Of a stretch of 64,000 nucleotides of DNA, positions 8,228 through 30,646 are shown one piece after another; position 1 is the first letter of the stretch, and every line of letters begins with the position of its first letter. The stretch lies in the NCBI GenBank assembly GCA_946482005.1, contig CAMLPV010000004.1:62001-126000 (forward strand). The letters run 5' to 3'. This stretch comes from an uncultured Gilliamella sp. GTDB taxonomy: Bacteria; Pseudomonadota; Gammaproteobacteria; Enterobacterales; Orbaceae. The translations under genes were made by a program, and so were the position numbers. The notes beneath the pieces are model-generated. The model was not told the DNA's origin, ran no database searches, and worked only from the letters and a program-made list of their open reading frames with translations.

Positions 8228-8542
8228 ATGGAATATAACTCTACCCGATCACCTAAACAATGTTATGATATGAATGATATTCGTACTGAGATCGATAAAA
8301 TTGATCATACTGTTATTAAACTATTTGCTACTCGTTTTGAGTATGTCAAAGCGGCCAGTAAATTTAAGAAAAATGCTAATGACGTACAAGCAAAAGCCCG
8401 TTTTGACAGTATGCTTGAACAACGAAAGCTTTGGGCAAATGAGTTAGGGCTAAATGGTGATGTGATTAAAGAGTTGTATGCTAATTTGGTTCGTTATTTT
8501 ATTGATGAAGAATTAAAACAATTTAATAATAATGAAAAATAA
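8228..8542 (+). CDS. Chorismate mutase family protein, PchB-like
   Basis: 104 residues of the AroQ-type helical fold. The signature runs DIRTEIDKIDHTVIKLFATRFEYVKAASKFKKN...ARFDSMLEQRKLWANELGLNGDVIKELYANLVRYFIDEELKQ. The Arg after 'LFATR', the Lys in 'YVKAASKFK' and the C-terminal helix match isochorismate pyruvate lyase PchB better than AroQ mutase domains. PchB makes salicylate for siderophores, but no other salicylate or siderophore gene is nearby, so the substrate is uncertain. It is followed, probably in the same transcript, by a ClbS/DfsB-type gene. Confidence 0.8.
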   Translation: MEYNSTRSPKQCYDMNDIRTEIDKIDHTVIKLFATRFEYVKAASKFKKNANDVQAKARFDSMLEQRKLWANELGLNGDVIKELYANLVRYFIDEELKQFNNNEK

Positions 8543-9157: not shown

Positions 9158-9394
9158 ATGGCTTTTTCAGAAACCGAACGCCAGCAATTATTAGAACTAA
9201 AATTTGTTGGCACTAAAATTATTGAAAGACTTGAAGAAATGCAACTTGATTCTTTCGATAAATTACGCAATGCTTCTTTGGATGAAATTCTTAACAAAGG
9301 CGCATTATTAACAGGCTCAACTTGTTGGAAAAACAGCCATCAAGCAAAAACTGCAATACTCAATATTTTGCATTTAGTACAAAAAAATAGCTAA
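9158..9394 (+). CDS. Small helix-hairpin-helix protein
   Basis: 78 residues from ATG 9158. AGGA at 9149-9152 is correctly spaced for this ATG and too close for the ATG at 9152. ELKFVGTKIIERLEEMQLDSFDKLRNASLDEILN is a helix-hairpin-helix unit of the kind used for sequence-independent DNA contacts. The tail GSTCWKNSHQAKTAILNILHLV is shared with small uncharacterised relatives. It stands directly behind the octanucleotide repeat, which may tune its expression. No specific function is known. Confidence 0.7.
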   Translation: MAFSETERQQLLELKFVGTKIIERLEEMQLDSFDKLRNASLDEILNKGALLTGSTCWKNSHQAKTAILNILHLVQKNS

Positions 9395-11400: not shown

Positions 11401-12117
11401 ATGAAAACATGGCAGCGAGTTTTAGCTTGTTTTTTGGGTGGTTGTTTGATTATTGGCGCATTTTGGTTTTTTACACAAACTCCATTAAGTGATGGTGATA
11501 ATCAGATAGAAAAAGAAAAAAAAGCGATCATTTCTGAGTTTAATTCAAATAAAGAGAATATTTTTACACAAATTAACCGGTTAATCTCTGAAGAAAAATA
11601 TGATGAAGCGATTTCTTTAGCCAGTAAATATCAGGTTACAGAAGACGAAGCATTGTTAAAATTGAAAGATCAGGCTCAAGCAGAGTTAACAAAAGTTAAC
11701 ACCCAGAAACAAATTACAGATCTGTCAAATGAGCTTAATGCAACCCCTGAATCTGAATTACAGAAACGATTTGATTTATACAGTAAACTATTAGAACTCG
11801 TTCCTGATAATTCGGAATATAAAACTAAACACGCTGAGTTAAAGCCAATAGTAGAAAGACTACAAATGATAAGCTCTCAATTTACGGGTGAAAATGGTGC
11901 TCATCGTAAACTTGAAAAATTTATAAAATTTAAAATGAAAGATGTAAGTACTTATAAACATCTTGAAACTAAATATGTTGAAAATGACGATAATACGTTA
12001 ACAATTACCACCACGTTTGATGGTAAAAAGGGTGATAGTGGTAAGATTACTAAAAATACTGTCACAGCGATTGTTGATTCAAATGGCAATCCAATTCGTA
12101 TTGTAAGTTGGAAATAA
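11401..12117 (+). CDS. Membrane-anchored protein of unknown function
   Basis: 238 residues. Residues ~7-24 are a single TM segment or uncleaved signal (VLACFLGGCLIIGAFWFF). It contains 'GGC', but the surrounding context is not a clean lipobox. The periplasmic part is a charged, mostly helical stretch (residues ~35-150, KEKKAIISEFNSNKENIF...), then a beta-rich end (TYKHLETKYVENDDNTLTITTTFDGKKGDSGKITKNTVTAIVDSNGNPIRIVSWK). No family is recognised. It is monocistronic, with a strong terminator directly after the stop. Confidence 0.6.
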   Translation: MKTWQRVLACFLGGCLIIGAFWFFTQTPLSDGDNQIEKEKKAIISEFNSNKENIFTQINRLISEEKYDEAISLASKYQVTEDEALLKLKDQAQAELTKVNTQKQITDLSNELNATPESELQKRFDLYSKLLELVPDNSEYKTKHAELKPIVERLQMISSQFTGENGAHRKLEKFIKFKMKDVSTYKHLETKYVENDDNTLTITTTFDGKKGDSGKITKNTVTAIVDSNGNPIRIVSWK

Positions 12118-12277: not shown

Positions 12278-14992
12278 TCAGTTAGCATAAAAACCTAATG
12301 ATTTTGAGTAAAAAGATGAATCTTTCCCTTTTTCAAGTAAAACAATGATGGCTTGCGGTTTATGCAGTTGCTGTCTAATTTTTTCTGAACTTTTTTCATC
12401 AAGTTGTTTAATGCTATTTTCTATTTTTTTCCATTTTGATAGGCTGATTGGCACTCGGCTTTGTTCCCATGCATATTCACTGTTAACACTGTAAGGGATT
12501 ATTTTGTTTTCTTCATTAGAATAAGCTAAATATAGATCGATATTATCTTTAGATAATCGGGTGGACAATTCAACATCTTCATCCCAATAGCTATCGGAGC
12601 CTCGTCTATAACCACTGTTAATATCTAATACACTCTGATTGGCAATAGAAGAGTGACTAAGCGACTTTCCTTTTTCCTTATAGTAAACTTCTGATAACCC
12701 TGACGGAGGCTCAATATCTTCAGCATAAACAGAATCAATCAATAAACGTGCCTCTTGAGGCATTTTGATATATGTTTGCTTACGTAGGATTTTTTGAGTG
12801 AGCCATAAATAAGCGTGATTAGGGTATACATAACTGGTATTGCGAAAAGCAGGATTATCCAGCCAATCTTTTTGCGGCTCATCTTGCCAAGGTGGCGCAA
12901 ACACAGTAAGAACAGGCGGATCTCGCTCATCTTTTGATAGATTTTCTTTATTATCAGGTTTGATATTGCCGTATTTATCTCTTACATGTCGTTGTAAACG
13001 ACCGGCACGTTGTATCAATAGATCGATAGGGGCTATGTCACTTATCATTTCGTCAAAATCAAGATCTAAAGATTGTTCTATGACTTGGGTTGCAATGATC
13101 ACTTTTGCTTGACGAATTTCACTATTTGAGGATTTTCCTGCCCATGTTAAGGCTTTTTCTTCAATTTCCAGTCGATCACAAAAAGCAAATCGACTATGAA
13201 AAAGTAAAATATGATCAGTGTCTATATTTAAGGTAAGTTGTAGTTGCTGATATAAGTCAATGGCATCAATTACACTATTTTTAATCCAACAGATAATTTT
13301 ACCTTGTTTTATTGATTGTTCAATTTTACTTATACCAGTTTCAATATCGGCAATCCATGCTATTTCAACCTGACGTTTTACTTCTTCTCGGGTATCTATT
13401 GGTTGTTCAGTCAGACCATGATAATTAAGTCTCGTTATAAGCGGAAACGGTAATGACTGATTTAAAGATAATGTTTGCTGCTTATTTATTAAGCCATTAT
13501 TAAATGCATTAAGTAACTTTTCACGTAAAAAAATAGGTAATGTGGCAGTTAGAATAATGGCGCTTCCGCCTTGTGTGGCGTGATAATTAAGTAATACTTC
13601 TAGCAGCTTTACCATGTAGCTGTCATAAGCATGAACCTCATCTAATATAAGTAATTTATGTCGCAGACCTAATAAGCGCAATGATTGATGTTTAAATGGC
13701 ATAATAGCCATTAAAACCTGATCGAGTGTACCTACGCCAACTTCTGCTAATAAGGCTTTTTTACGAGTATCAACAAACCATTCGTTACATTCAGCACTGA
13801 CAGATTGTTCACCATTAGAATATTTTTGTTGGCTGATATGATCGTTCGTTAAAATGGATTGGGTAAAATTTGGATTCATATAGCTAGCGCCGTGAGTCAA
13901 TACTAATGATGGATGACTGCCTGTTTGATATAATTTTTCGTAGACATTTGCGGTGCGTTGATAAATGGCATTAGCTGTTGCCATAGTTGGTAGACCAATA
14001 TAAATTCCTTGTACTTTTTGGGCTGACATTAATCGACTTGCTAAAATCATTGATGCTTCGGTCTTTCCAGCGCCGGTTACATCTTCCATAATAAACAATT
14101 CAGGGTTCTTATCAGATAATTGACAGGATAATGCGTACTCTTGTAGTGGTGTTGGTTTTTCAATAAAGGGAAAGAGATTTTTAATGTTCTTAAATTGAGC
14201 AACAGAAGATAATTTGGGAAGAGTTGCTATGGCATTTTCTGCTTGAATGATTGCATGATTTTGCCAATATTCCGATAATGGCATCACTTGCCAATTAAAT
14301 GAGAATAACTGCTCATTTGATCCTAACCAATCGCTGATAACAGTTAAACCAGCAATCAACCAACTTATTTGGTTCAGTTTTTCTTGATGTGTTTTATTGA
14401 TAAAAAATTTTAGATAATGTTGTAATTTATTATCTTTAATAAAAAGCTGATAAATTGCTTGAATATAATCGGATGCACTTTCTTTATCTTGTTCATTAAA
14501 TGCTAACTTACCTTTTATATCTTTTAGTAGTTTAGGAGGCTTTCCATGATGCCCAGTCATGATTAGTAACCAAATATTATATAAATTCTTAATTTTTTGA
14601 TTATATTGGTCTAGCTGAATTTCTGGTTTGAGTGATAAGGATTCACGCCATAACCACCAACCCAGTGAGTCATGTCTTGATAAATATTCTTTTGAGGGAT
14701 CAGCGGCAACAAGTTGTGGGTTATTGTGCTTAAATAGTTTTTGAAATCCATTAGCAAATTTACCAATATCATGCCAAGCTAAAAAATAGGCAAACCAAAG
14801 TGCAGCTTGTTCTTTATCATTTGAAGAAAAGCCTATTTGTTCAAATAATTCAAAAGAATTGAAATAATTGTGTTTGACTATCTGATAACCGCATGCCGCT
14901 ACATCTAAATTGTGATAAGCAAGTAAATGATAGGAAGAATTATCGGCATTTTGTCGACATTTTCCCCAATATTGATAAAAAGATTCCACCAT
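12278..14992 (-). CDS. cas3: CRISPR-associated helicase-nuclease Cas3 (type I-E)
   Basis: 904 residues, usual length for I-E Cas3. The N-terminal HD nuclease shows YHNLDVAACG, WHDIGKFANGFQ and GHHGKPP. The helicase has Walker A DVTGAGKTEAS, DEVH (LILDEVHAYDSYM), ILTATLP and the motif VI region QVIEQSLDLDFDEMISDIAPIDLLIQRAGRLQRH. Cas3 is recruited by Cascade to unwind and degrade target DNA. All key residues look intact. Unlike the E. coli arrangement, it lies 9 kb from cse1 and on the opposite strand, behind the yej operon and frdCD, so it must have its own promoter (15000-15200). AAGGG precedes the ATG on the minus strand. Confidence 0.95.
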   Translation of the reverse strand: MVESFYQYWGKCRQNADNSSYHLLAYHNLDVAACGYQIVKHNYFNSFELFEQIGFSSNDKEQAALWFAYFLAWHDIGKFANGFQKLFKHNNPQLVAADPSKEYLSRHDSLGWWLWRESLSLKPEIQLDQYNQKIKNLYNIWLLIMTGHHGKPPKLLKDIKGKLAFNEQDKESASDYIQAIYQLFIKDNKLQHYLKFFINKTHQEKLNQISWLIAGLTVISDWLGSNEQLFSFNWQVMPLSEYWQNHAIIQAENAIATLPKLSSVAQFKNIKNLFPFIEKPTPLQEYALSCQLSDKNPELFIMEDVTGAGKTEASMILASRLMSAQKVQGIYIGLPTMATANAIYQRTANVYEKLYQTGSHPSLVLTHGASYMNPNFTQSILTNDHISQQKYSNGEQSVSAECNEWFVDTRKKALLAEVGVGTLDQVLMAIMPFKHQSLRLLGLRHKLLILDEVHAYDSYMVKLLEVLLNYHATQGGSAIILTATLPIFLREKLLNAFNNGLINKQQTLSLNQSLPFPLITRLNYHGLTEQPIDTREEVKRQVEIAWIADIETGISKIEQSIKQGKIICWIKNSVIDAIDLYQQLQLTLNIDTDHILLFHSRFAFCDRLEIEEKALTWAGKSSNSEIRQAKVIIATQVIEQSLDLDFDEMISDIAPIDLLIQRAGRLQRHVRDKYGNIKPDNKENLSKDERDPPVLTVFAPPWQDEPQKDWLDNPAFRNTSYVYPNHAYLWLTQKILRKQTYIKMPQEARLLIDSVYAEDIEPPSGLSEVYYKEKGKSLSHSSIANQSVLDINSGYRRGSDSYWDEDVELSTRLSKDNIDLYLAYSNEENKIIPYSVNSEYAWEQSRVPISLSKWKKIENSIKQLDEKSSEKIRQQLHKPQAIIVLLEKGKDSSFYSKSLGFYAN

Positions 14993-23509: not shown

Positions 23510-23588
23510 ATGAAAATCCCCACGAGAGTGGGGAACTGATTTTAATTATTACTTGCTATAGGTTTATCCCTATCAAGATAAGGAACAT
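23510..23588 (-). ncRNA. Mini-CRISPR: two degenerate I-E repeats and a 21-nt pseudo-spacer (crRNA-like guide)
   Basis: Read on the minus strand. Repeat 1 (23588-23560) is 29 nt with stem CCTTAT/ATAGGG, loop CTTG and 3' handle ATAAACCT. Repeat 2 (23538-23510) has stem CCCCAC/GTGGGG, loop TCTC. The array repeat at 30073 has CCCTGT/ACAGGG, loop ATAC, handle ATAAACCG. All three keep the 5+6+4+6+8 layout and all stems still pair, so both could be cut by Cas6e. The intervening 21 nt (23559-23539) start ATAGC and would be the guide. The processed RNA would be about 50 nt against 61 for a normal crRNA. Repeat 2 has lost its handle, as expected if only one guide is made. The guide matches two sites at 23632-23675. 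Transcription of this strand is not proven. Confidence 0.75.
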
Positions 23589-23631
23589 TGATTACAAATA
23601 ACAGTAGGATTGTAACATAAATAAATTTATT

Positions 23632-23678
23632 ATCATAATTATCACTAGCTATCTTATATAATTATTAATAGCTATCTT
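23632..23678 (+). promoter_or_regulatory. Tandem self-target sites of the crRNA-like guide over the cas-side promoter
   Basis: On the minus strand, site A (23652-23632) matches the guide at 17/21 (mismatches 6, 10, 18, 19). Site B (23675-23655) matches at 16/21 (mismatches 6, 8, 18, 20, 21). Each is preceded 5' by AAG (plus-strand CTT at 23653-23655 and 23676-23678), the classic I-E PAM. Site A contains CATAAT (23634-23639), 18 bases after TTGTAA (23610-23615). Site B contains a perfect TATAAT (23657-23662). Both -10 boxes face the 56-residue ORF and the Cascade genes, so Cascade bound here would block transcription. Two further TAGCTA motifs (23723, 23737) lack a usable PAM. Confidence 0.65.
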
Positions 23679-23841
23679 GCCTTTTTTGTTGTTAATTAGA
23701 AAATTTTATGTTAAATTAAAAATAGCTAAAACATACTAGCTATACATTATCAGCATTGCATGAAATAACTATCGATATAAGTACTCATTGAGTATACAGC
23801 ATCGCTAATATTTTCCAATTTTTTTATAAGGAGAAAGTTTT

Positions 23842-24012
23842 ATGTTTTTATTAAAAAAATTATTATCAATATGTAATTCTCTAGGAAATATGTTTAATTA
23901 CCGAAAAAATCGATGGGCAATTGAATTAATGCATATAACAAATGATCAAAAAATTCGATCGTATACTTTAAGTTTTGAAATCAATAAATCAGCTTCATAT
24001 AGAATTAAATGA
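23842..24012 (+). CDS. 56-residue ORF between the mini-CRISPR and cse1
   Basis: ATG 23842 follows AAGGAG (23828-23833) at good spacing. The product starts MFLLKKLLSICNSLGNMF, a short basic amphipathic segment, and then has a hydrophilic part (NRWAIELMHITNDQKIRSYTLSFEINKS). No family is recognised. It is the first reading frame behind the promoter that the crRNA-like guide appears to target and lies 69 bases before cse1. That position fits either a leader gene of the cas operon or a small toxin kept silent by Cascade (CreT-like). Coding is supported by the RBS and position only. Confidence 0.5.
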   Translation: MFLLKKLLSICNSLGNMFNYRKNRWAIELMHITNDQKIRSYTLSFEINKSASYRIK

Positions 24013-24027
24013 TTTAAGCTTAAACCG

Positions 24028-24056
24028 ATAAGCGGAATAATTTATATTTCGCTTAT
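24028..24056 (+). repeat. Hairpin between the 56-residue ORF and cse1
   Basis: ATAAGCGGAA (24028-24037) pairs with TTTCGCTTAT (24047-24056) with one G-U pair and a 9-base loop. It ends 14 bases before the cse1 ribosome binding site. It may be an RNA processing or attenuation element. No T-run follows. Confidence 0.6.
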
Positions 24057-24081: not shown

Positions 24082-25608
24082 TTGCCTACTTTATCATTGT
24101 TAGACCATGAATGGATTCCTGTAAGACATTTTAATGGTCAGATAAGTAAAATTAAGCCCAGTCAGTTAATTGATGAAACCATTTCTGATTTAGCCTATTT
24201 TAGACCTGATTTTCAAGGTGCTGCATACCAATTTCTTATTGGTTTACTGCAAACTGCTTTTTACCCCAAAAATGATGATGAATGGTTAGACTATTGGGAT
24301 GAGGGTATACCCCAATCACAGCTAGATAAAGCATTTGAACAAATTAAACCAGCAATGCAATTTGGTGCTACTAAACCTGCTTTTATGCAAGACTTTACAC
24401 CATTAAATGGTAATAAAGTACCAATATCGGGTTTATTGGTTGAGGCACCTGGTGAAAATGCTTTAAAGAGAAATACAGATCATTTTATTAAGCGGGATTT
24501 TGTTAAGGCTATCTGCCCACATTGTGCAGTTATGGCATTATTTACTTTACAAACTAATGCCCCAGCAGGTGGACAAGGGCATCGAGTCGGTTTGCGAGGC
24601 GGAGGACCAATTACCACGTTAATAATGCCTGAGCTGAACTCGCCAACACCATTATGGAAAAAGTTATGGTTAAATGTAGTACCACTTAATGGTGATGAAA
24701 AACCACAACGCTATGATGAAACTGTCTTTCCATGGTTAAACAAAACCATAACCAGTGAACCGCCAAAAAATTTAAGTGTATATCCTGAACAAGCTAATTT
24801 TTGTCAAGCTTTTTGGGGCATGCCTCGCCGAATTGAGCTAGATTTTGACAATATAACGCAAGGCCATTGTGATCTTTGTGGTGAGGAGTCGTCTGAGCTT
24901 ATTAGCTATTATCAAACTAAAAATTATGGTGTTCAATATCAAAACTGGCGGCATCCTTTATCCCCTTATCGAACGGACAGTAAAACGGGAGCACCGATTG
25001 CCATCAAAGGTCAGCCTGGGGGGTTAATTTATCGCGATTGGTTAGGAATGGTTACTACTAATGATGATAACCAATCAGCTCAAGTTGTTAACGTTCATGA
25101 TTATCGTGACTTGGAATCTCACCAAGAATATCACCTTTGGTGTTTTGGTTATGATTTTGACAATATGAAAGCTCGCTGCTGGTATGAACATAACTTTCCG
25201 GTCTATCCAATATTTGCTGACCCAGATAGTGATATTAAAGAGTTAATTGCACTAGCACTTGAGTTTAGTAATGAAACTTTAAAAATACTACGTAAGGCCT
25301 TGGCTAGTATCAATAAACAATCAAGTTCCGTTGATATTGCTTATTGGAAAGAAACTGAAATACCTTTTTATGAATTTGTTACACAACTTATTGAACAAAA
25401 AGATAACCCAAATGGTCGCTTTCATTTTTTGTTAGGTTGGACAAATACCTTGTTAAAATATATCACCCAAATTTACGATAAAGCTGCTTTTTCAGATCCA
25501 GATCAACAGATGATCAATTCTGAAAAAATTAGTACAAGAGTAAAATTACTTAAAGATTTTAACAAACTTAAAAATATCAAAAAGATTAAAAATAATAAAC
25601 CGTCTTGA
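24082..25608 (+). CDS. casA: Cascade large subunit Cse1 (CasA, Cas8e)
   Basis: 508 residues from TTG 24082, preceded by AAGGAG at 24070-24075. N-terminus SLLDHEWIPVRHFNGQISKIKPSQLI is the family start. A zinc-site pattern appears twice (CPHC, residues about 149-152, and CDLCGEE near 265). RVGLRGGGPITTLI is the glycine-rich loop region linked to PAM recognition in this family. Cse1 reads the PAM, positions target DNA and recruits Cas3. First cas gene of the operon. Confidence 0.95.
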   Translation: MPTLSLLDHEWIPVRHFNGQISKIKPSQLIDETISDLAYFRPDFQGAAYQFLIGLLQTAFYPKNDDEWLDYWDEGIPQSQLDKAFEQIKPAMQFGATKPAFMQDFTPLNGNKVPISGLLVEAPGENALKRNTDHFIKRDFVKAICPHCAVMALFTLQTNAPAGGQGHRVGLRGGGPITTLIMPELNSPTPLWKKLWLNVVPLNGDEKPQRYDETVFPWLNKTITSEPPKNLSVYPEQANFCQAFWGMPRRIELDFDNITQGHCDLCGEESSELISYYQTKNYGVQYQNWRHPLSPYRTDSKTGAPIAIKGQPGGLIYRDWLGMVTTNDDNQSAQVVNVHDYRDLESHQEYHLWCFGYDFDNMKARCWYEHNFPVYPIFADPDSDIKELIALALEFSNETLKILRKALASINKQSSSVDIAYWKETEIPFYEFVTQLIEQKDNPNGRFHFLLGWTNTLLKYITQIYDKAAFSDPDQQMINSEKISTRVKLLKDFNKLKNIKKIKNNKPS

Positions 25609-25628
25609 TAGCATGTAGGGAGAACAAC

Positions 25629-26258
25629 ATGTCAGATACTACCCCAAAAGAGCTGATAATCTTAAATGATAACCATAAAAAGATTATTGATGAATGGTTT
25701 TCTATGTTGCAGCAACGGCAAGGTAAATTCAATGGTATTACTTATAATGGACGCAAATTGCGGGCTGAATTACGTCGAAATTCATTATATGAATTAATAT
25801 GTTCACAAGCTGGCTACAGGATTTTAGCTGATAAACTTATTAATAACGACAGTAAATTAGCTAAAACAGAAGTTCATTATTATGCATTACGGATATTTGC
25901 CAATGTAGCAGCTTTTGCAGAAAAGAATAATGATAAATCGCCATTTGCTACACAATTGAGTGAAAAAATTAATGGAGGCGAACGTAATTATTTAACTGAA
26001 CTGCGATTTGAACGCCTTCTTGCCAGTGAAAACCCTGATGAATTTTGTCAACGTTTAATTCGTGCTGTTAAGTTGCGAGGTGAAAAAGGGGTTAATCTAA
26101 CTTCCCTTGCTGATGGCATCTTTTTATGGATGCAAGAGTGGGATGCACGTGAACATGGTTGGCCAGCTGATACTAACCCATTTAAACGCCTTTCTGTTCG
26201 TTGGGAAATGGACTACTTTTCAATTAAAAATAATACTAATACTAATACTAAGGAATAA
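25629..26258 (+). CDS. casB: Cascade small subunit Cse2 (CasB, Cas11)
   Basis: 209 residues from ATG 25629 (GGGAG upstream), preferred to an upstream start overlapping cse1. All-helical, basic. Typical blocks: YNGRKLRAELRRNSLYE and LTELRFERLLASENPDEFCQRLIRAVKLRGEKGVNLTSLADGIFLW. It forms the dimer along the Cascade belly that steadies the R-loop. Confidence 0.93.
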   Translation: MSDTTPKELIILNDNHKKIIDEWFSMLQQRQGKFNGITYNGRKLRAELRRNSLYELICSQAGYRILADKLINNDSKLAKTEVHYYALRIFANVAAFAEKNNDKSPFATQLSEKINGGERNYLTELRFERLLASENPDEFCQRLIRAVKLRGEKGVNLTSLADGIFLWMQEWDAREHGWPADTNPFKRLSVRWEMDYFSIKNNTNTNTKE

Positions 26259-26263
26259 TCATC

Positions 26264-27328
26264 ATGACTACATTTATTCAATTACATTTATTAACCGCTT
26301 ATGCTCCCTCAAACTTAAACCGTGATGATTTAGGTCGACCAAAAACCGCTAAAATGGGTAATACTGACCGTTTACGCATTTCGTCACAAAGCTTGAAAAG
26401 AGCTTGGCGAACCTCTGACTTTTTTTATCAATCATTGAGCGATCATATTGGCGCTCGTTCTCGTCGCTTTGCTCGAGATTGGGTATATAAGCCAATGATT
26501 GATAATGGCATATCTGAAAAAATAGCTAAAGAAAGTGCAATTAAAATAGCCGGTCAGTTTGGTAAAGTAAAAAATGAAAAATCACCAAAAGATCCATTGA
26601 GTAATTTAGAAATCGAACAATTAGTACATATTAGTAATTATGAACAACAAGCAATTAAACAATTAGTTGATTTATTAATTAGTGAAAAACGTGAGCCTAC
26701 CGATAATGAAGTTAAGTTATTGCGTAAAGAAAATAGTAGTATTGATATTGCATTATTCGGACGAATGTTAGCAGATAGCCCGGCATTTAATATTGAAGCT
26801 GCGTGTCAAGTTTCTCATGCATTAGGGGTAAGTACCGTAACCATTGAGGATGATTTTTTTACTGCTGTTGATGATTTAAATAATAATGATGTTGATGCTG
26901 GCTCAGCACATTTGGGCGAGCGTGGATTTGCCTCTGCACTGTTTTATACTTATGTCTGTATCAGCCGTGATTTATTATTAGAAAATTTAAATGGTGATGA
27001 AGTATTGGTTGAAAAAACCTTAAAAGCTTTAACTGAATCAGCAGCCAAAGTAGCACCAACTGGTATGCAAAATAGTTTCGCTTCACGGGCATATACTTCC
27101 TACTTATTGATAGAAAAAGGGAGTCAACAACCTCGCTCTTTAGCGGTAGCTTATTTTAATCCAATTCGTAGTCAAGATCTGGTTAATGATGCCATTACCC
27201 GTTTAGAAGAACAACGTGATAAATTTGATAAAGTTTATGGCCAATGCGCTGATAGTCGCTATGTTCTCAATAGTGAAACAGGAGAAGGAACCCTTAGTGC
27301 TGCATTAGATTTTGTTGCACAAAAATAG
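26264..27328 (+). CDS. casC: Cascade backbone subunit Cas7 (CasC, Cse4)
   Basis: 354 residues. IQLHLLTAYAPSNLNRDDLGRPKTAKMGNTDRLRISSQSLKRAWRTS is the characteristic start of the I-E Cas7/DevR family. Six copies wrap the crRNA, each flipping out one base in every six, which matters for reading the mismatch pattern at 23632-23675. AAGGAATAATCATC precedes the ATG. Confidence 0.96.
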   Translation: MTTFIQLHLLTAYAPSNLNRDDLGRPKTAKMGNTDRLRISSQSLKRAWRTSDFFYQSLSDHIGARSRRFARDWVYKPMIDNGISEKIAKESAIKIAGQFGKVKNEKSPKDPLSNLEIEQLVHISNYEQQAIKQLVDLLISEKREPTDNEVKLLRKENSSIDIALFGRMLADSPAFNIEAACQVSHALGVSTVTIEDDFFTAVDDLNNNDVDAGSAHLGERGFASALFYTYVCISRDLLLENLNGDEVLVEKTLKALTESAAKVAPTGMQNSFASRAYTSYLLIEKGSQQPRSLAVAYFNPIRSQDLVNDAITRLEEQRDKFDKVYGQCADSRYVLNSETGEGTLSAALDFVAQK

Positions 27329-27341
27329 GAGAGCTGACAAG

Positions 27342-28085
27342 ATGATCAACCATCTTATTTTTCAGATTTATGCCCCTTTTACCTCTTGGGGCGAACCTGC
27401 TGTTGGTGAAGTTCGCCACAGCAATATTATTCCCTCTCGCTCTGCTTTATTGGGATTAGCCTCAGCTGCACTTGGCATTCGCCGTGATGATAATCAAATT
27501 GATAATTTTAATCAGCATTATCATTTTGCGATTCGTCCTTTTATTGCTAATAATAGCTGGTTTAGAGATTTTCATACTGTTCAAGTTCCGAGAGCTAACA
27601 AAAAGAAAGTCTGGTATACGCGCTTTGATGAAATCCGACAAAACCCCCTTGAGCTGGAAACTTTATTATCACAGCGTGAATATTATAATGATGTTTACTA
27701 TCAAATTATAATGTCTGAAACTGAAAATGCACCCTATAGTTTAACCCAAATACAACAAGCATTACTCAACCCCATTTTCCCATTATACGCAGGAAGGAAA
27801 AACTCACCTTTATCGTTGCCTTTGTCACCTATCTTGTATCAAGGAACATTGCGTGATGCTTTTATTTTTGCAGATAAACATTATCAAGAGTGTCATCGTC
27901 AAAATCCAGTTATCATTAAATTATTAAAAAGTACTGCTGATGAATATTATTGGGAACAGGTCAATCAAGAAGATCACTTTAAGGTAATTAAAATTCAGCT
28001 TCGTCAAGATCAACCAGTAAGTCGTGATCGCTGGCAATTTAGTTATCGTCAGCAGTTTTCAGGCAATTTGAAAGGGAGTGAATAA
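27342..28085 (+). CDS. casD: Cascade subunit Cas5 (CasD)
   Basis: 247 residues from ATG 27342, AGGAG upstream. The N-terminal ferredoxin-like fold is seen in LIFQIYAPFTSWGEPAVGEVRHSNIIPSRSALLGLASAALGIRRDD. Cas5e caps the 5' handle (ATAAACCG) of the crRNA. The handle of the mini-CRISPR keeps 7 of these 8 bases. Confidence 0.95.
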   Translation: MINHLIFQIYAPFTSWGEPAVGEVRHSNIIPSRSALLGLASAALGIRRDDNQIDNFNQHYHFAIRPFIANNSWFRDFHTVQVPRANKKKVWYTRFDEIRQNPLELETLLSQREYYNDVYYQIIMSETENAPYSLTQIQQALLNPIFPLYAGRKNSPLSLPLSPILYQGTLRDAFIFADKHYQECHRQNPVIIKLLKSTADEYYWEQVNQEDHFKVIKIQLRQDQPVSRDRWQFSYRQQFSGNLKGSE

Positions 28086-28763
28086 ATGTATTTTTCTCGA
28101 GTTACTTTAAAACTAAATCAACTTCCTTATGTTATGCAACAGAAAATGCGAAATTCGGGACCTTATGCAATTCATCAATGGTTATGGCAACTCTTTCCTA
28201 ATCAAGAAAAACGTACTTTTTTATTTCGTGAAGAGCGAATTGATAAAGGTTATCAATATTATCTATTATCGGAAGTCGCACCACTCTCAAATCATCAGTT
28301 TTTTTTAATAGAAACTAAACCGTATCAACCAAAATTAACAGCTGGAATGAGATTGTTTTTTTTACTACGGGCGAATCCAGTAGTGTTTAAAAATGGTAAG
28401 CGTAGTGATGTGTTGATGGACGCTAAATATCCGATTAAAAAACAAAGGTTAAAAATAAAGACTAATGAGATAAAAACTCGCCAAAATGAAGCTGCAATAA
28501 ATTGGTTAATTAAACAGAGTGAAACCAGAGGATTTTCATTATCAACGACTAACGATCAACAAGTAAATTGTGCAGTAATTAGTTATGTCCAACAGCAATT
28601 TATTAAAAAAAGTGATCTTAAACCAATTATTTACAGTAGCGTTGATTATCAAGGCGTGTTGACAGTGACGGATGCTGAATTGTTTTTAAATACCATCTAT
28701 CAAGGAATAGGCAAAAGTAAAGGATTTGGTTGTGGTTTATTCTTGATAAAACATTATCAATAG
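28086..28763 (+). CDS. casE: crRNA endonuclease Cas6e (CasE, Cse3)
   Basis: 225 residues, immediately after cas5. YFSRVTLKL opens the first ferredoxin fold. AIHQWLWQLFPNQ holds the histidine that corresponds to the catalytic His of E. coli Cas6e. GIGKSKGFGCGLFLIK is the family's glycine-rich loop. It cuts the repeat at the 3' base of the hairpin and stays bound. Confidence 0.95.
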   Translation: MYFSRVTLKLNQLPYVMQQKMRNSGPYAIHQWLWQLFPNQEKRTFLFREERIDKGYQYYLLSEVAPLSNHQFFLIETKPYQPKLTAGMRLFFLLRANPVVFKNGKRSDVLMDAKYPIKKQRLKIKTNEIKTRQNEAAINWLIKQSETRGFSLSTTNDQQVNCAVISYVQQQFIKKSDLKPIIYSSVDYQGVLTVTDAELFLNTIYQGIGKSKGFGCGLFLIKHYQ

Positions 28764-28774
28764 GATAAACGGTT

Positions 28775-29988
<1,214 letters not shown>

Positions 29989-30072: not shown

Positions 30073-30348
30073 GTGTTCCCTGTATACACAGGGATAAACC
30101 GCGATAAAAAAATAATTTATCGTTTTCTTTTTTGTGTTCCCTGTATACACAGGGATAAACCGCCCTTTTTAGGGCTTCATATACAATTATTGCAGTGTTC
30201 CCTGTATACACAGGGATAAACCGCTATAATAATGGTACACACAGCTAATGCGTACGTGTGTTCCCTGTATGTACAGGGATAAACCAGTTATATATTTGTG
30301 CCAAGTTCCGCCGTTCAGTAAGTTCCCTGTATACACAGGGATATAGTT
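30073..30348 (+). CRISPR. Type I-E CRISPR array, 5 repeats and 4 spacers
   Basis: 29-bp repeats at 30073-30101, 30134-30162, 30195-30223, 30258-30286 and 30320-30348. Repeats 1-3 are identical, with stem CCCTGT/ACAGGG and handle ATAAACCG. Repeat 4 has a changed stem arm (TATGTACA) and ends CCA. Repeat 5 is altered at both ends, marking the leader-distal end. Spacers are 32, 32, 34 and 33 nt. Spacer 1, the newest, contains an inverted repeat followed by a T-tract. The short array next to intact cas1/cas2 suggests low recent acquisition or loss of spacers. Confidence 0.97.
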
Positions 30349-30646
30349 AGATTAATTAGGTAAAGTAATGAAAGGCTTTTAGCTACAGGGTTATAAGCAT
30401 ATACTCTCCTTAAAGTCTTAATAACGTTTTAACTTTATTTCTTTACTAATATAGGCATATATTCACTTTTATATTTTTATGAATATAAAAAATCGAATGA
30501 GATTTATTAAAAATCTTAAATAGTTATGAAGTTCATTTTAAAACATGAAAATTGAAAGTAACTGTTAACTAAACTAATAATCAAAAATAGCGTACAATAG
30601 TGCGTTATTAAACATATGATCATCATAAATAGTTTAGGAATTTAGC
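30349..30646. other. Intergenic region between the array and tmk
   Basis: About 300 AT-rich bases with no gene. It contains the promoter region of tmk. AGGA lies about 9 bases before the tmk start. Confidence 0.5.

Follow-up and report, generated by a model that had tools for sequence, protein, structure and literature searches.

What two degenerate CRISPR repeats are doing directly upstream of a cas operon is the question raised by the type I-E locus of an uncultured Gilliamella sp. On the minus strand (23588-23510), upstream of cse1, two worn type I-E repeats are set around a 21-nt guide, and an initial annotation of the window, by which we mean the whole 64,000-nt stretch of DNA that was analysed, took this unit for a guide with which Cascade represses its own operon. 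Here we weigh that proposal, feature by feature, against the sequence of the locus, against its relatives within the genus and against cas loci of other genera.

A degenerate repeat pair beside the cas operon

Both repeats keep the 5+6+4+6+8 layout, the stem of repeat 1 still pairs (five Watson-Crick pairs and one G-U), and its handle agrees with that of the array repeat at seven of eight bases; on these three points the initial annotation was borne out. The element lies between cse1 on one side and a fumarate reductase subunit C-like gene on the other (Table 1). An ordinary CRISPR array would have near-identical repeats and spacers of ~32 nt, whereas here the repeats are divergent and a 21-nt spacer stands against an array period of 61 nt. 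Racr units are encoded by phages or mobile elements, whereas this element sits at the cas locus, as it does in 10 other Gilliamella genomes. What the sequence presents is a crRNA-like unit with repeat-derived handles adjoining the cas operon, in a genome with a complete type I-E gene set (NCBIfam) and hence a cognate Cas effector, both of which are expected of a CreR guide. A search of the window with Rfam at the gathering threshold gave no match. Other genes intervene between cas3 and the Cascade operon. Contigs C1, C5 and C20 of the same genome (G000) carry additional arrays whose repeats differ a little; in C1, for instance, the repeat ends in GGGATAGACC.

Table 1. Features of the cas locus, in window coordinates.
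Feature	Position	Strand	Basis and description
cas3	12278..14992	-	NCBIfam; ~9 kb from cse1, opposite strand
Degenerate repeat 2	23510..23538	-	sequence; doubles as a terminator-like hairpin, then TTTT
Guide (pseudo-spacer), 21 nt	23539..23559	-	sequence; ATAGCAAGTAATAATTAAAAT
Degenerate repeat 1	23560..23588	-	ATGTT CCTTAT CTTG ATAGGG ATAAACCT; ATAAACCT is the source of the 8-nt 5' handle
Presumed guide promoter, -10-like box	23609..23614	-	consensus match, inferred; TACAAT with upstream TG
Target site A	23632..23652	-	17/21 to guide; AAG at 23655-23653
Target site B	23655..23675	-	16/21 to guide; AAG at 23678-23676; tandem copy of A
Promoter-like block, presumed sORF-cas operon promoter	23686..23717	+	inferred, by eye; TTGTTG (23686-23691) ... 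TGTTAAATT (23709-23717)
sORF, 56 codons + stop	23842..24012	+	ORF reading; with ribosome-binding site
cse1 (cas8e), first cas gene of the operon	24082..25608	+	NCBIfam TIGR02547
cse2, cas7, cas5, cas6e, cas1, cas2 (type I-E)	25605..29988	+	NCBIfam
CRISPR array	30073..30350	+	sequence; 29-nt repeats GTGTTCCCTGTATACACAGGGATAAACCG, period 61 nt

The guide finds partial matches at two sites on the cse1 side of repeat 1. Their description in the initial annotation, as AAG-flanked matches of 17/21 and 16/21 that both miss at guide positions 6 and 18, was confirmed and lies above chance, with the correction that sites A and B are a 23-bp tandem duplication and therefore do not count as two independent matches. 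When "as good" is defined as an AAG, a seed of at least 9/10 and a match of at least 16/21, one such site arose in 2 of 20000 simulated regions (first-order Markov, 500 nt) and two such sites in 0 of 20000. The annotation had also pointed to a -10-like box in each site, facing cse1. The boxes are present, but the sequence there varies by species, and the promoter-like block common to relatives lies outside the targets, on the cse1 side. Judging from sequence, the sites probably do not act through these boxes.

That block we take for a promoter by resemblance only. By eye, TTGTTG occurs in 9 of the 11 Gilliamella loci that carry the element and TG.TAAATT exactly in 7 of the 11, and a consensus promoter scan of the region gave no excess, with 7 matches found and 8.0 expected. 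The guide's complementarity, partial and PAM-flanked, is to a presumptive cas promoter region, as would be expected of a CreR guide. Candidate promoter matches for the guide itself are likewise not above chance in the consensus scan, and by eye TATG followed by a TA.AAT-like box stands at the same place in 9 of the 11 loci. Between block and cse1 some further structure is seen: the leader of the small open reading frame (sORF), 23718-23841, has a conserved dyad or hairpin of 19 consensus pairs, of which 4 are changed in both arms, with a covariation term that is a little unfavourable; it also holds, at 23818-23791, a promoter-like match on the minus strand. An inverted repeat seen by eye, ATAAGCGGAA...TTTCGCTTAT, lies at 24015-24055 between the sORF and cse1, and similar pairs are seen by eye in relatives.

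Guide and target in Gilliamella and beyond

Co-variation of guide and target among relatives was the test that the initial annotation had set for itself, and the proposal came through it: the seed matches its own AAG site in all 11 Gilliamella loci with the element, and likewise in 11 loci outside the genus. In a search of 35 genomes of the genus, cas8e was matched in 23, at 24 places; the 20 of full length were used, and the four short ones (L029-L032) were left out. The element is present in 11 of these 20 genomes (L009, which is the window, L010, L011, L015, L017, L018, L019, L020, L021, L024 and L025). It was not found in the other 9 of the 20, and it would therefore seem dispensable, with the reservation that one of the nine, L013, is on a contig that ends 387 nt upstream of cse1, too early to judge. 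Two Gilliamella loci without the guide, L022 and L023, have a stop codon within the matched cas8e stretch, and it is possible that guide loss there is linked to decay of the CRISPR system.

Ten of the 11 loci fit one repeat pattern, and the more degenerate L019 was added by hand. In the ten pattern-parsed loci the guide is 21 nt long in nine and 20 nt in one, and without exception the 21-nt stretch from repeat 1 to cse1 that matches it best is flanked by AAG. The five-base seed of the guide is spelled by nine different words over the 11 loci and equals the first five bases of its own AAG site in every one of them, so that guide and target have changed together beside an invariant AAG. Scored over positions 1-5 and 7-11 at AAG, own pairs reach a mean of 9.55 out of 10 and swapped pairs 5.86, with 0 of 100000 permutations as high, even though near-relatives blur this swap test: the L009 guide scores 10 at the L010 site against 9 at its own site, and the guides of L017 and L020 are the same. 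At no locus do shuffled guides equal the AAG-seed score in more than 0.4% of 2000 trials, and they reach the whole-guide match in 0 to 5% of trials for ten loci (4-5% in L020, L021 and L025) and in 18% for L019; the strength of the case is in AAG, seed and cross-locus comparison, and not in any single whole-guide match. The target is duplicated in L009 and L010. When 394 order-level genomes were searched with an RNA model built on the Gilliamella element (R2), strong matches, of at least 65 bits, were confined to Gilliamella, and the model missed the elements that are described below for other genera; a weaker match, in G392, was read as non-CRISPR sequence.

The mismatches that do occur keep a rhythm of six. 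From guide position 1 to 21, the number of matching loci among the 11 is 11 11 11 11 11 5 11 10 9 10 10 4 11 10 10 5 8 1 5 7 5. Over positions 1-18, mismatches fill 23 of the 33 cells at positions 6, 12 and 18 and 16 of the 165 elsewhere (Fisher 2e-12), or 19 of 27 against 13 of 135 (1.4e-10) when the near-duplicates L010 and L020 are dropped, and since position 18 stands in the zone where the match fades, positions 1-15 alone make the cleaner test (4e-9); cells of related loci are not independent, so that all the Fisher values given here serve only as guides. Cascade leaves every sixth nucleotide unpaired (PMC13122317), and unless selection acted on pairing within Cascade, such a rhythm in the sequence would be difficult to account for.

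A similar layout exists outside Gilliamella. A Pectobacterium cas8e query (E 1e-60) matched 29 of the 394 order-level genomes, 15 of them outside Gilliamella; these 15, together with 12 of 13 named non-Gilliamella loci (L046-L057) and E. coli K-12, made up 28 regions. CasA of E. coli, used as a second query, matched 1 of 394 genomes of the order sample and 7 of 392 family genomes, and these 7 were scanned too, for a total of 35 regions, among which named and unnamed sets may overlap. In 11 of the 35 there is a repeat-like hairpin, a guide and an AAG site with a seed of 9 or 10 out of 10: L050 and L051 (Pectobacterium), L053 (Brenneria), L183, L184, L189, L204, L206, L207, L208 and E. coli K-12. 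The paired element was not found in the other 24, of which L048, L191 and L203 have something repeat-like without a target and 21 gave nothing by our filter. Position 6 had not counted in this initial ranking; the sites were therefore scored again with all positions treated alike, and over positions 1-17 with any PAM the AAG site is the best in 11 of 11, from 15/17 in L183 down to 11 in L206 and 10 in L208. The rhythm recurs as well, with mismatches in 16 of the 22 cells at positions 6 and 12 against 10 of the 143 at the other positions of 1-15 (Fisher 4e-11); these loci were chosen by seed match, which inflates the matching and affects less the contrast at position 12, a position unused in the choice and mismatched in 8 of 11. 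Taken over all 22 loci, the matches per position are 21 22 22 22 22 8 21 21 19 21 21 7 20 19 18 10 12 5 8 10 9. The distance to a second repeat-like hairpin, measured by eye, is ~20-21 nt in L050, L051, L053, L206 and L208 and ~26-32 nt in L183, L184, L189, L204, L207 and K-12.

E. coli K-12 deserves separate consideration. In its casA-cas3 gap (NC_000913.3, L193) a degenerate repeat at 8482-8510 is followed by the guide TTATTGGTCTTATTATCGTCA, the target of which lies at 8357-8377 after AAG and is mismatched at positions 6, 9 and from 17 on; none of 20000 Markov regions gave a match as good, and among 20000 shuffled guides 4 equalled it. The second repeat is hard to recognise. The gap region is present in 1126 of 5426 E. 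coli genomes, and positions 1-11 of guide and target are identical across the five variants of it that were compared. A divergent promoter in this gap, anti-Pcas, has been described with its role called unknown (PMC10011333), and the anti-Pcas RNA has been given as 150-200 nt long and predicted to be structured (PMC7074321). A promoter-like match at L193 8343-8372, on the right strand, would yield an RNA of this kind across the guide, but such matches are rarer here than in shuffles (1 against 3.3). From the sequence, the anti-Pcas transcript may contain such a guide, and the candidate makes the question of its role testable in a laboratory strain. The other I-E variant of E. coli (cas1 60-80% identical, 2669 records) has 97 bases from cas3 to casA in the three loci examined, and a scan upstream of cas3 in strain W, which carries this variant, gave nothing.

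A second target at cas3 was considered and rejected. The window has an AAG site matching at 15/21 upstream of cas3, but over the 11 guide-bearing genomes the own seed score there is 5.55 and the swapped score 5.54, for which reason the site is taken as chance. There is no signal at cas3 of the kind seen at the cas operon, and by sequence cas3 appears to lie outside the control of the guide.

The seed-AAG match in 11 of 11 loci, the mismatches at 6, 12 and 18 and the same pattern in 11 loci outside the genus lend support to the reading proposed in the initial annotation, and we would put at roughly 85% the probability that the element is a CreR-type, Cascade-guided autorepressor of the type I-E cas operon.

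A possible mechanism and its rivals

In the scheme that we favour, a minus-strand RNA would be made and would end at the repeat-2 hairpin; Cas6e would then cut repeat 1, leaving the 8-nt handle and a short guide; and Cascade, loaded with this guide, would bind its AAG-flanked target, single or duplicated, a short way upstream of the sORF-cse1 promoter and hinder RNA polymerase. The targets lie upstream of the promoter-like block, not across it, with their AAG end facing it, so that Cascade would perhaps press on the upstream edge of the promoter. Pairing that fades after ~15-17 bases, with position 12 usually open, might leave an R-loop too short for cleavage by Cas3. The fading of the match after position 17 and the Gilliamella guide of 20-21 nt would both fit binding without cutting, and in a type I-B system a 24-bp spacer has been reported to repress without interference (PMC10989794). 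Because guides outside Gilliamella can be longer, truncation cannot be the whole reason for the lack of a Cas3 cut, and there the mismatches would have to serve. A shortage of Cascade, its engagement with crRNAs or a block on it would release the operon. The promoter-like box of the guide lies on the other side of the target, which is 20-77 nt from repeat 1 across loci (43 in the window), and the guide could therefore dampen its own synthesis in some loci.

The rival that survives best, and against which we would nevertheless bet at some odds, is an addiction module in the manner of CreTA or CrePA, in which the guide mainly silences a toxin-like sORF peptide, production of which would follow loss or inhibition of Cascade, and the cas genes are co-regulated passengers. 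Of the cistrons that follow the target, the sORF indeed comes first. An intact copy is present in 9 of the 20 Gilliamella genomes, all of them guide-bearing, and was found in none of the 9 where the guide was not found, while the guide-bearing L015 and L019 have it broken or missing. Two cases of a lost sORF beside a retained guide, and none of the reverse, are what one would expect of a toxin, but one intergenic deletion removing both guide and sORF would produce this too. Also in favour of this rival, the guide label makes six changes on the Cas8e tree, at least five of them forced by well-supported branches, and the sORF dN/dS is 0.38-0.74 in five of six pairs, the sixth being without synonymous change; the label clusters no more strongly than shuffled labels do (193 of 500 as low). 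Before casA in L204, L206 and L207, at the same place as the sORF, there are very hydrophobic peptides (36-39 aa, 19-residue mean hydropathy 2.95-3.18) with ribosome-binding sites, which are toxin-like in build. The window's peptide, in contrast, is not hydrophobic (0.79), and searches of Pfam and NCBIfam with four members of its family, up to an E of 10, matched nothing. L015, without an intact sORF, keeps an intact-looking guide with a seed of 10/10, although an antitoxin may persist after its toxin is lost, and our filter found no sORF with a ribosome-binding site in E. coli K-12, L183 and L208, so that the guide does not need one. No stand-alone copies of the sORF were found: a search of 44 family genomes gave 12 matches below E 0.001, every one of them upstream of cas8e.

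A related unit also occurs in prophage-like DNA of a Gilliamella genome, and two viral contigs carry it (L122 6210-6299 in G002:C33, L125 ~9226-9310, L126 ~11710-11795). This mini-CRISPR has a spacer of 33 nt and a similar second repeat; by eye, it includes a stretch resembling a promoter (TTGACA...TATAAT), and the neighbouring ORFs look like tail genes. The unit adjoins a 363-aa protein (L122 6328-7419) resembling part of Cse1 with a Pfam E of 0.0028, below the cut-off. This unit could be an RNA anti-CRISPR accompanied by a Cse1 decoy. Its guide was tried against the upstream regions of the 20 Gilliamella cas loci, where the best seed was 9/10 in one (L010) and at most 8 in the others, which is unconvincing, and in a genome pattern search its matches were about as frequent as those of the control. 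The presence of this unit beside a Cse1-like gene, and the existence of RNA anti-CRISPRs made as solitary repeats (PMC10651486), invite the idea that the repeats at the cas locus act as RNA decoys, derived by domestication from a phage-type RNA anti-CRISPR, and sequester Cas proteins without directing them to the promoter. We consider this very improbable, as a decoy needs neither guide-target co-evolution nor AAG nor a six-base rhythm.

Slighter still is the prospect that the match reflects coincidence between AT-rich sequences, or that an array has decayed and its final spacer is by accident similar to DNA close by. In favour of this one can cite the AT-richness of the region, the tandem duplication that makes up the two targets and the fact that shuffled guides attain some of the single-locus whole-guide matches; against this are set the simulation, the swap control, the constant AAG, the rhythm and the replication outside Gilliamella, and the neutral drift of a decaying array would have spread its mismatches evenly. 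Just as little credence goes to tandem sites serving as operators for a protein regulator beside a hairpin that is merely a terminator, for although the 23-bp duplication, the terminator-like repeat 2 and the conserved dyad farther downstream might suggest it, the target varies between species in step with the guide, where an operator would be conserved.

If the Cascade-guided autorepressor reading is true, a gut symbiont controls its CRISPR system by the system's own effector, and the loci hold an evolutionary record of Cascade pairing, in which bases are kept where they are paired and drift at every sixth position. The six-base rhythm would then offer a sequence-only test for such guides. 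One could go further and suppose, speculatively and with more chance of being wrong than right by a good measure, that the element is a branch of an old I-E autorepressor of the order, present in E. coli K-12 too, that the anti-Pcas transcript is the guide RNA there, that the first cistron under its control in Gilliamella and several other genera is a small toxin-like peptide, and that an anti-CRISPR would free both the Cas proteins and this alarm peptide. Among the matches listed in our literature search, judged by title and the start of the abstract and with most subscription papers lying outside the search, none treats the element in Gilliamella or ties anti-Pcas to a guide, which is weak evidence of novelty.

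Relation to known Cas-guided regulators

The initial annotation had placed repression by CreR and CreA RNAs through Cas effectors in other CRISPR types. CreR autorepression is not limited to these: a review names types I-B, I-E and V-A (PMC13131331), and reports of it are found elsewhere too (PMC12737573, PMC12948488), so that the element, on the reading favoured here, would belong to a known kind. With CreR it shares a mini-CRISPR guide beside the cas operon and partial complementarity of this guide to the cas promoter region, as described in the same sources. It differs in that the evidence here is evolutionary, in the guide of 20-21 nt (10 loci), in the duplication of the target in L009 and L010, and in the sORF that often lies between promoter and cse1.

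The likeness to CreTA consists in two divergent degenerate repeats around a guide that partly matches a promoter, CreA genes being commonly found with two divergent repeats (PMC8501985). Unlike CreTA, in which the toxin CreT is an RNA, the locus has a protein-coding sORF with the cas genes directly after it. CrePA comes close in having a protein-coding gene behind the promoter that the guide would repress (PMC12737573); its toxin is a KilA-N protein, which CreA and the Cas effector keep repressed, whereas the sORF family, of 52-60 codons, has no KilA-N or other Pfam or NCBIfam match. Racr, the RNA anti-CRISPR of phages, finally, resembles the element in placing CRISPR repeats outside arrays, and a related unit does occur in Gilliamella prophage DNA. 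What sets the chromosomal element apart from Racr is a co-evolving target at its own cas operon.
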